Source: Halorubrum alkaliphilum
Lineage (GTDB): Archaea; Halobacteriota; Halobacteria; Halobacteriales; Haloferacaceae
Direction: 5' to 3'
DNA length: 64,000 nucleotides
NCBI RefSeq assembly: GCF_017873815.1
Contig: NZ_JAGGKQ010000017.1
Location: 1 to 64,000 of the forward strand
Part shown: one piece after another, positions 14,660-17,397 of the stretch
How positions within the stretch are numbered: the first letter of the stretch is position 1
How the letters are laid out: each line of letters begins with the position of its first letter
Translations under genes and position numbers: made by a program
The notes under the pieces: model-generated
What the model saw: the letters and a program-made list of their open reading frames with translations, nothing else
What the model was told of the DNA's origin: nothing
The model's database searches: none

Positions 14660-14764
14660 ATGAACGAGCAGGAGACGATCCACGTCGCGGACGTCAGCGA
14701 AGGGATCGGCGGCGACGCGACGGCGGAGCCGGGTTGCTCTGCTCGTGAAGTATATATAGTATAG
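14660..14764 (+). pseudogene. Stranded 5' end of the HerA-like ATPase gene
   Basis: A short frame starts at ATG 14660 and reads MNEQETIHVADVSEGIGG and then DATAEPG before running into AT-rich sequence and a TAG at 14762-14764. Its first 24 codons use host-like GC-ending codons; the last ten do not. The EQETIHV pattern resembles the first residues of the intact HerA-like protein (EEQQISV) and, as I recall, the N-termini of haloarchaeal HerA-like ATPases. I infer that this is the original promoter and start of the HerA-like gene, cut off by the downstream insertion at about 14732. Confidence 0.6.
14750..14759 (+). promoter_or_regulatory. TATA box of the HNH cassette
   Basis: GTATATATAG is a strong archaeal TATA element. 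Transcription would begin near 14778, some 45 nt before ATG 14823, and would read through HNH into the overlapping HerA-like gene. Confidence 0.5.
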
Positions 14765-14822
14765 TATGAGATCATCTCTGTGTGTACGGCATGCGTATTC
14801 ACGAACGAGTGAGCCGTCGACG

Positions 14823-15437
14823 ATGAGCGGGGAAACACCGTGGCGGGAAGCGGAGCTACTCCGGTCATTATATACTGAAGAGGATCTCACGACGAGGGAA
14901 GTCGGTGAACGACTCGACTGTAGTCGGCAGGCGGTGGAGGAGTGGATACACCGTCATGACATCGCAACCCGGTCGTATAACCCGGAGACACCGACCGAAC
15001 TTCAAAACCGATCGAAACTCGAATCGATGTATCTCACGGACGGTATGAGCACGTATGCGATAGGGGAACAACTCGGATGTGCCCCCTCTACCGTTCACAA
15101 CTGGTTGAACCGCCACGGGATAGAGACGCGGTCAGTTGGGTCACAGTCCGGAGCGCTACACCACCGCTGGAAAGGTGGTGTGGATGAGTATTACGGTGAT
15201 AATTGGGCGCGACAGAGACGAAAAGCGCTTCAGCGGGATGACCTCGAATGCCAACGGTGTGGGATATCCCAATCGGAACACCGAAAACGAACGGACCTCG
15301 GACTTGATGTCCATCACGAAACGCCGATACGGACGTTCGAATCTCCCGAAAACGCGAACTCGTTGGAAAACCTCGTGACCCTGTGTCGTTCGTGTCATAA
15401 CACGGTCGAACCGCCAAATACGAAACAAAATGACTGA
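14823..15437 (+). CDS. HNH endonuclease with two helix-turn-helix domains (probable homing enzyme)
   Basis: The product is 204 residues. Two similar HTH units come first: residues ~11-48 (LTTREVGERLDCSRQAVEEW) and ~66-104 (STYAIGEQLGCAPSTVHNWL), then a HNH zinc-finger nuclease: CQRC (143-146), VHH (163-165), Asn183 in SLENL, LCRSCHN (187-193). The layout of a HNH nuclease with DNA-reading HTH repeats is typical of free-standing homing endonucleases. Codon use is AT-richer than the neighbours, pointing to transfer. ATG 14823 is preferred because the upstream ATG at 14766 lies before the expected transcription start. The last 8 bases (ATGACTGA, 15430-15437) overlap the start of the HerA-like gene, coupling their translation. 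Confidence 0.8.
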   Translation: MSGETPWREAELLRSLYTEEDLTTREVGERLDCSRQAVEEWIHRHDIATRSYNPETPTELQNRSKLESMYLTDGMSTYAIGEQLGCAPSTVHNWLNRHGIETRSVGSQSGALHHRWKGGVDEYYGDNWARQRRKALQRDDLECQRCGISQSEHRKRTDLGLDVHHETPIRTFESPENANSLENLVTLCRSCHNTVEPPNTKQND

Positions 15438-17397
15438 CGAAGAACAACAGATATCCGTCGGGGTCGATCAGGAGTACGAAGACGACGTTTCGCTCCCGGT
15501 AGTAGAACTTCTCACCGGTCGAGGATTTATAACGGGTAAGTCCGGGTCCGGAAAAAGTAACACTGCCTCTGTCGTTGCCGAGAAGCTGCTCGATTCCGCG
15601 TTTGGACTTCTCATCGTCGACGTAGACGGCGAATATTATGGTTTAAAAGAGGAGTACGAGATCCTCCACGCTGGCGCGGACGACGAGTGCGACATCGTCG
15701 TCTCGCCCGAGCACGCCGAGAAGATCGCGACGCTCGCCTTGGAACAGAACGTGCCGATCATTCTCGACGTCTCCGGCTATCTGGAGGAGGAGACGGCCAA
15801 CGAGCTCCTGCTCGAAGTCGTCAAACAGCTGTTCGCGAAGGAGAAACGGTTGAAAAAGCCGTTCCTGCTCGTCATCGAGGAGTGTCACGAGTACATCCCC
15901 GAGGGCGGCGGGATGAACGAGACGGGTAAGATGCTGATAAAGGTCGGCAAACGCGGGCGGAAACACGGCCTCGGGATCGTCGGGATCAGCCAGCGCCCGG
16001 CCGACGTCAAAAAGGACTTCATCACGCAGTGTGACTGGCTCTGCTGGCACCGGCTCACGTGGGACAACGACACGAAGGTCGTCGGGCGCATCCTCGGCTC
16101 GAAGTACGCGAGCGCGGTCGAAGACCTAGGCGACGGCGAGGCCTTTTTAATGACCGACTGGGACGAGTCGATCCGTCGGATCCAGTTCCATCGCAAACGG
16201 ACCTTCGACGCGGGCGCGACGCCGGGGCTCGACGACTTCGAGCGCCCGGAGCTCAAGTCGGTCTCCAGCGACCTCGTCGGAGAGCTTCAGTCGATCTCCG
16301 ACGAGCAAGAGCGTCACGAGTCGGAGCTCGCCGACCTCCGACAGGAGCTGGAAAAGAAGGACCAGCGGATCCGCCAGCTCGAACGCGAGTTGGAGGACGC
16401 CCGGGACCTGAGCGACATGGCCGACCAGTTCGCACAGGCGATGCTCGGCAAGGCCGAGGCTCCCTATCGCGGTGGGGGCGGACGGTCGGTCGCGTCGGCG
16501 AACCGCCGCGAACAGGCCGGGATCGACGACTACGACGTTGCGGTCGCGAAAACCGAGGGCGAGTCCCCGGACCCCGCCGAAACCGATGACCCCGGCGATG
16601 GGGGTGACGGAGGCGGAGAGAGCGGTGACGGAACCGACGTATCGAGCGACGAGGCTACGGACGACGGCGACGCGGCCGGGAGATCCGGCGACGACGGGGA
16701 GGTCGACTCGCGGAACGCCGGACCCTCCGATGTCGAAGCCTCCGACGTCGAACCCGCCGACGTCGAACCCGCCGACGTCGAACCCTCCGACGTCGACCCC
16801 GTGACGCGCGCGGATGTCGCCGAGGGAGCGCTCCGGTTCGACGACGCGGTCGAACTGGGGACTCGCGAGGCGGTCATCGAGGAGCTTCGCGGGCGGATCG
16901 AGGCGCTCTCCGACCTCTCACGTGGAATGCTCCGACACTACCGTCGCGAGGGCGTCAGCGACCCGGTCGCAGCCCATATCGACGCCGGCGGAGACGGCGA
17001 CGACGAACACGCCTACAGCCGCCACCGACCCATCCGGAAGTCGGGCCTCATCCGGCATGCCGGGCGGGGCCACTACACGTATGCGGTGCCGGACCTGATC
17101 CGTGAGGCGTACGCGGACCGGCTCGACGAGCCGGCCGTCCGCGAGACGGTTCGGGAGGTCGAGACGGCGTTCGTGCCGCCGGCCGAACGCGAGTATCCGC
17201 CGGACGCGGGCCCCGAGGCGGTCGAGGGGAGCGTCGAGGAGGGCAAACGAGCCGTCAAAAGCGGGGCAGAGGGCGGAGTCGGGAGCGTATCCGAAACGAG
17301 CGAGAACGCCGCAGACGACGAAACAACGCCGTACACCGGCGATTTAAGCGAGGCGGCTCGGCGGATCGCGGAGCGGGGTGTCGACGGCGACGAGTAA
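15430..17397 (+). CDS. HerA-like ATPase (DUF87) with coiled coil and acidic linker
   Basis: The product is 655 residues. Residues 1-270 form a HerA/FtsK-type P-loop ATPase: Walker A GKSGSGKS (36-43), Walker B LLVIEECHEY (146-155), and GKRGRKHGLGIVGISQRP. Such ATPases translocate along double-stranded DNA; the partner nuclease NurA is not adjacent, so the exact role is unknown. A coiled coil (~290-330) and a disordered acidic linker with five SDVEP-like repeats lead to a C-terminal domain (~455-580) that looks like a winged helix (HRPIRKSGLIRHAGRGHYTY). By hand count about 35 of the first 73 codons end in A or T, against about 8 of the next 70. The 5' end therefore looks imported with the HNH gene, which overlaps the start. 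Confidence 0.88.
   Translation: MTDEEQQISVGVDQEYEDDVSLPVVELLTGRGFITGKSGSGKSNTASVVAEKLLDSAFGLLIVDVDGEYYGLKEEYEILHAGADDECDIVVSPEHAEKIATLALEQNVPIILDVSGYLEEETANELLLEVVKQLFAKEKRLKKPFLLVIEECHEYIPEGGGMNETGKMLIKVGKRGRKHGLGIVGISQRPADVKKDFITQCDWLCWHRLTWDNDTKVVGRILGSKYASAVEDLGDGEAFLMTDWDESIRRIQFHRKRTFDAGATPGLDDFERPELKSVSSDLVGELQSISDEQERHESELADLRQELEKKDQRIRQLERELEDARDLSDMADQFAQAMLGKAEAPYRGGGGRSVASANRREQAGIDDYDVAVAKTEGESPDPAETDDPGDGGDGGGESGDGTDVSSDEATDDGDAAGRSGDDGEVDSRNAGPSDVEASDVEPADVEPADVEPSDVDPVTRADVAEGALRFDDAVELGTREAVIEELRGRIEALSDLSRGMLRHYRREGVSDPVAAHIDAGGDGDDEHAYSRHRPIRKSGLIRHAGRGHYTYAVPDLIREAYADRLDEPAVRETVREVETAFVPPAEREYPPDAGPEAVEGSVEEGKRAVKSGAEGGVGSVSETSENAADDETTPYTGDLSEAARRIAERGVDGDE
16726..16800. 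repeat. Five 15-bp tandem units in the HerA-like linker
   Basis: Units such as GCCGACGTCGAACCC repeat five times without gaps, encoding (S/A)DVE(P/A) pentapeptides in the disordered linker. The units differ by a few bases at the ends of the array. Confidence 0.9.

Follow-up and report, generated by a model that had tools for sequence, protein, structure and literature searches.

Why does a HerA-like ATPase gene of Halorubrum alkaliphilum have two starts, with an HNH endonuclease gene lying between them? The locus sits in what we call the window, the whole stretch of 64,000 nucleotides that was analyzed (NCBI assembly GCF_017873815.1, contig NZ_JAGGKQ010000017.1, positions 1 to 64,000, forward strand; genome G000). 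A sequence-only reading had proposed that an endonuclease cassette cut off the 5' end of the ATPase gene and rebuilt it with a piece of its own. The parts of the locus are as follows, all on the plus strand.

14660..14733, plus strand: retained native 5' end of the HerA-like gene (the leader), a start codon and 24 codons; left homology arm; uninterrupted in 44 Halorubrum loci and kept in all six Halorubrum carriers of the HNH gene
14660..14764, plus strand: leader open reading frame of 34 codons; its stop, TAG at 14762-14764, lies one base ahead of the HNH ATG
14734..15630, plus strand: mobile unit, comprising the HNH gene and the carried HerA-like 5' segment; missing from uninterrupted alleles, with borders set by comparison
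14766..15437, plus strand: HTH-HNH endonuclease gene, 223 amino acids, supported by the open reading frame, Pfam matches and dN/dS
15430..15437, plus strand: overlap of the HNH stop and the HerA-like start, ATGACTGA, identical in six Halorubrum carriers
15430-17397, plus strand: HerA-like open reading frame, with its ATG within the HNH stop overlap
15430..15630, plus strand: carried replacement HerA-like 5' segment, about residues 1-67, Walker A included, delimited by a divergence step, fixed differences and GC3
15589..15624, plus strand: carried-segment counterpart of the likeliest cut or recognition stretch in intact alleles (codons for LLDNGFPVMIVDTDG), an inference from a divergence peak in three lineages
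15631..17397, plus strand: native HerA-like ATPase gene from here to its end, the right homology arm; carriers and empty alleles are equally similar from EYYG on

The leader begins with an ATG at 14660 (MNEQETIHVADVSEGIGGDATAEP) and agrees with uninterrupted alleles to 14733, where it diverges. The earlier description of a host start and 24 codons followed by a break is accurate, but its picture of a leader that stops dead needs qualifying, as the reading frame continues to the TAG at 14762-14764. The reading had also recognized an HNH/HTH endonuclease gene, for which Pfam now reports two HTH units (HTH_23, 2e-12) and an HNH domain (1e-8, above the cut-off), and an 8-bp overlap between the endonuclease TGA and the HerA-like ATG, which is present in the window. 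The "new TATA box" that it placed upstream of the endonuclease (about 14753) is not supported as a conserved feature, being absent from the other carriers. The leader TGA and the HNH ATG overlap (ACATGA) in four further carriers, so that the leader appears to be a retained upstream reading frame, and judging from this layout its translation is probably coupled to that of the HNH gene.

We sought the HerA-like gene in 53 Halorubrum genomes, one per species and hence without any within-species pair of carrier and empty allele, and could read the N terminus or its vicinity at 51 loci. At 44 of these, the leader runs directly into the HerA-like gene without an HNH gene, and the encoded protein starts like M-TEQETIHVADVSEGIGGDATAEPGSPVELPVVDVLTGRSFITGKSGSGKSNT, which is the window leader continuing into HerA. 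This is the allele that had been predicted, in which 14660-14731 would continue into about codon 20 of HerA. Neither of the findings named beforehand as fatal to the proposal came to light: there was no unrelated gene continuing from the leader and no HNH-free relative with the whole carrier N terminus, although one genome, G044, shares its later part. The HNH gene is present in six Halorubrum genomes (the window genome, G033, G003, G031, G049, and G029), all of which keep the leader to about GGDAT and then break it, and in all of which the HerA-like gene restarts at an ATG that shares bases with the HNH stop. The remaining locus, that of G044 (L012, G044:C4), is uninterrupted; it resembles empty alleles as far as FITGK and carriers from SGSGK to about codon 44. 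This mosaic makes recombination its likely origin; the allele is plausibly resistant and may have lost, or never had, the nuclease. Six carriers, 44 uninterrupted alleles and one recombinant meet the test for an insertion at a fixed site that varies in presence and absence within Halorubrum.

We then compared carrier and empty alleles along the ATPase gene. Over HerA residues 21-65, nucleotide identity between the two is 0.57-0.72, and afterwards it rises to 0.85-0.94; beyond the segment, carriers are as close to empty alleles as empty alleles are to each other. Fixed differences, defined as bases common to >95% of empty alleles and present in no carrier, are confined in the same way: all 18 found in the 800 nt examined fall within the first 134 nt and end at 15623, with none in the next 670 nt. 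Base composition changes as well, GC3 in the window being 0.57 in the carried segment versus 0.88 after it, and 0.57-0.68 in the segments of carriers versus a mean of 0.82 in empty alleles. All six Halorubrum carriers thus have a diverged version of the first ~67 codons, and by these comparisons host codons about 25-68 have been replaced by a diverged homologous segment. The sharp step in divergence and the confinement of the fixed differences bear out the 5' replacement that had been proposed, and an architecture common to six genomes, with differences restricted to the predicted segment, is not due to chance.

The interrupted gene encodes a protein that matches DUF87, the HerA central domain (2.5e-10), and a search across the order matched the gene in 361 of 392 genomes, hardly any of which carry the HNH gene. 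Against the NCBIfam HerA helicase equivalog the protein scores 53 bits versus a cut-off of 970 and fails that test; on profile scores, then, the window ATPase is HerA-like only and not the HerA helicase equivalog. Only one full-length ATPase copy is present in the genome of the window, so the hybrid gene must serve.

The nuclease has the hallmarks of its family: VHH, NLxxLC, CxxCHN, and CxxC are invariant in the HNH proteins of nine carriers, which meets the test for the HNH family, and there is a PDB match to 5h0m. Modeled with AlphaFold2 at moderate confidence (mean pLDDT 72, pTM 0.39), the G033 protein shows an HNH region together with four three-helix units. The window protein lacks about 96 amino acids, two of the four HTH units, relative to the other five Halorubrum carriers, and may have a weakened or different activity. 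The missing stretch is in frame and lies between similar CSR[KQ] repeats. Among Halorubrum carriers dN/dS of the HNH gene is 0.08-0.17, which indicates purifying selection on the protein. The nuclease belongs to phrog_8446, a family of halovirus HNH proteins, and its halovirus relatives in tblastn are distant. A scan of genome contigs for relatives gave one Halorubrum match and one weak relative, and a search of viral contigs gave none that could be confirmed. More distant HTH-HNH relatives in other genomes (L063-L068) lie in other contexts, some of them adjoining virus-like genes.

The distribution of the element does not follow that of its hosts. On a tree of pyk, a gene unlinked to the HerA-like locus that we used as the marker of host phylogeny, the six Halorubrum carriers need six state changes and a single clade is rejected (p-AU 1e-34). 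They are likewise scattered on a tree of the downstream part of the HerA-like gene (single clade rejected, p 5e-4), whereas in the tree of the 5' segment they form one clade with G044 as its sister. Between G031 and G029, two distantly related hosts, synonymous differences are 0.42 in pyk and 0.43 in downstream HerA versus 0.16 in the segment and 0.24 in the HNH gene. The nuclease gene and the segment are therefore far more alike than the host genes and moved together, and these trees and distances establish, at the level of sequence, a common horizontal spread of the two within Halorubrum. The test of discordant trees for the carried end and the host part, with horizontal movement, is met.

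An order-wide search (392 genomes) with a four-HTH protein as query found three further near-full-length HNH relatives, one in family f17 (G163) and two in family f4 (G229 and G362), all within the same HerA-like gene. The HNH gene is absent from all 17 congeners of G163, and G288, G344, and G413, congeners of G229 and G362, are uninterrupted. Between G163 and its near relative G223 the leaders are identical as far as the junction, and homology sets in again at EYYGL, the same point as in Halorubrum; identity is 96% downstream and 73% in the segment, so that the borders of the mobile unit equal those in Halorubrum. The HNH gene of G362 begins at the start codon of the host gene itself. Every one of the nine carriers has its HerA ATG overlapped by the HNH stop; in the three outside Halorubrum the overlap is ATGA. 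Allele comparison thus shows the arrangement recurring in two other haloarchaeal families, and these three carriers, along with the discordant trees, support the view that the unit spreads between species and recurs across families. The difference between carrier and empty alleles peaks at the same codons (LLDNGFPVMIVDTDG) in three independent lineages, adjoining the common right border. One comparison, that of G362 with G288, shows only weak divergence in the Walker A part of the segment, which counts against the explanation we favor. We also considered a foreign origin of the carried segment, which could not be shown: a 138-nt tree places each family's segment, on long branches, nearest the alleles of its own family. 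A single clade of all carried segments is neither shown nor rejected by this tree (p-AU 0.06); that the segments of the three families do not group together also weighs against the favored explanation, as does a window nuclease short of two HTH units.

We are largely confident that positions 14734 to about 15630 constitute a homing element in which an HTH-HNH endonuclease gene is combined with a replacement for the 5' end of the invaded gene, with cleavage being an inference. The nuclease would bind through its HTH array and cut intact alleles inside the replaced stretch, probably at the LLDNGFPVMIVDTDG codons that immediately precede EYYG. The break would be repaired from the carrier chromosome, the leader and the native gene serving as left and right homology arms, respectively. 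The carried segment would restore the ATPase and, being diverged, would presumably escape cutting. Since the leader stop overlaps the HNH start in four carriers or precedes it by one base (window), leader, HNH and HerA may be coupled in translation, and the host promoter would probably drive the HNH gene and rebuilt HerA, both reached through the leader by stop/start coupling of translation. With appreciably less assurance, we lean toward a broader interpretation: an autonomous prokaryotic home-and-rescue lineage that specializes in one core ATPase gene, has invaded it in three haloarchaeal families or more, relies on the promoter and start codon of its host through coupled leader-HNH-HerA translation, and selects for resistant nuclease-free recombinants like G044.

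Pairs of HerA and a nuclease are known in defence. With that precedent, the HNH and HerA-like genes might be a two-gene defence module, their overlap and synteny being signs of a shared function and the altered N terminus an adaptation to the partner. Weak matches exist on both sides, of PADLOC HerA models to the ATPase (best 6e-25, part of the model covered) and of ZorE models to the HNH domain. We think this improbable. The ATPase is a core gene that almost never has the HNH gene beside it, and it reaches only about 50 bits against NCBIfam antiphage HerA models with cut-offs of 800-850. Moreover, the HNH gene interrupts its supposed partner and leaves the 5' end behind, and amino-acid and synonymous changes alike end at a sharp border. 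A HerA-nuclease defence system was accordingly rejected on distribution and scores, the test for membership not being met.

We give equally little weight to the possibility that an HNH insertion was followed by a single fortuitous rebuilding of the gene, through recombination with a diverged homologue, which would make the segment a mere hitch-hiker offering no protection from cutting. Co-conversion of the flank alone would also carry the segment along with the HNH gene, and the resistance of carrier alleles is only inferred. Yet three lineages share both the design and a divergence peak at the same codons, and no transfer could do without the segment, since an insertion that brought no 5' end would leave the gene broken. 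The idea that the element is ancestral in Halorubrum and was repeatedly lost can draw on the deep divergence of the element lineages (HNH synonymous differences up to 0.70), but it hardly survives the facts that most alleles across the family and the order are uninterrupted, that exact restoration of codons 25-68 requires an intact template, and that the HNH gene and segment of G031 and G029 are far younger than their hosts.

The homing element we infer has its closest parallels in fungi. In the yeasts Torulaspora and Lachancea, WHO elements at FBA1, which encodes aldolase, combine an endonuclease gene with a divergent end of the host gene; their homing swaps the gene end, keeps the gene functional, and confers resistance, and cutting has been demonstrated (eLife 2020, PMC7282813). 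The element described here is alike in this pairing and in the discordant trees of the two gene parts (PMC7282813). It is unlike WHO in having an HTH-HNH instead of a LAGLIDADG-type nuclease related to inteins and HO, in replacing the 5' instead of the 3' end, in residing in an archaeal chromosome and not a eukaryotic nuclear one, and in leaving the leader alone behind, whereas displaced gene ends pile up in clusters at WHO loci; cutting, moreover, is only inferred here. Its nuclease does not meet the test of LAGLIDADG relationship to HO and inteins, so its likeness to WHO elements lies in the way it works and does not make it one of them.

The mORFs of fungal mitochondria, which come with duplicated carboxy-terminal coding segments (Allomyces atp6; Glomus atp6, atp9, cox2, and nad3), also pair an endonuclease reading frame with a substitute gene end that gives an expressed hybrid gene of mostly synonymous divergence (PMC3630166). 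They differ in gene end (3' versus 5'), nuclease (LAGLIDADG or GIY-YIG versus HNH), and setting (mitochondria versus an archaeal chromosome) (PMC3630166). The feature that defines both groups, a divergent homologous end completing a hybrid host gene, is found here. The element is thus distinct from known gene-end-replacing elements in its archaeal chromosomes, unrelated nuclease, and opposite gene end. To our knowledge, homing elements that carry a substitute piece of their target gene are otherwise confined to fungal mitochondria and yeast FBA1. No archaeal or bacterial counterpart was found in the literature by title and abstract, a coverage that is incomplete; that this is the first in archaea is our own reading and is not demonstrated. 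The free-standing HNH endonucleases of haloviruses HJTV-4, PhiCh1, and HCTV-5 share the HTH units, the HNH domain, and phrog_8446, but are at most about 41% identical over most of their length.

Engineered home-and-rescue and cleave-and-rescue drives are reported to follow the same logic of cutting a native gene and supplying a working recoded version; they are synthetic CRISPR systems in insects and similar in working only (PMC7968924, PMC7951863). With nine carriers, empty alleles by the dozen, and one likely resistant recombinant on record here, genetically tractable haloarchaea offer a setting in which to test how a home-and-rescue drive runs in nature, from spread and divergence of the carried piece to resistance and loss. 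The locus also reveals a route by which a core gene turns hybrid.

Haloarchaeal inteins resemble the element in that they, too, home to a conserved position within a core gene. They are removed by protein splicing, whereas here no intein is involved: the HNH gene is a separate reading frame with its own start and stop, and the HerA-like gene restarts at its own ATG. As regards a self-splicing intron, the native codons 25-68 of carriers are missing rather than interrupted. A congener of G229 and G362 (G414; L108, G414:C88:22900-25900) has an intein-like insertion in the Walker A of the same HerA-like gene, in the context GKSGGGK-S...VFVHN-SNSASV, a second kind of homing element at this gene.
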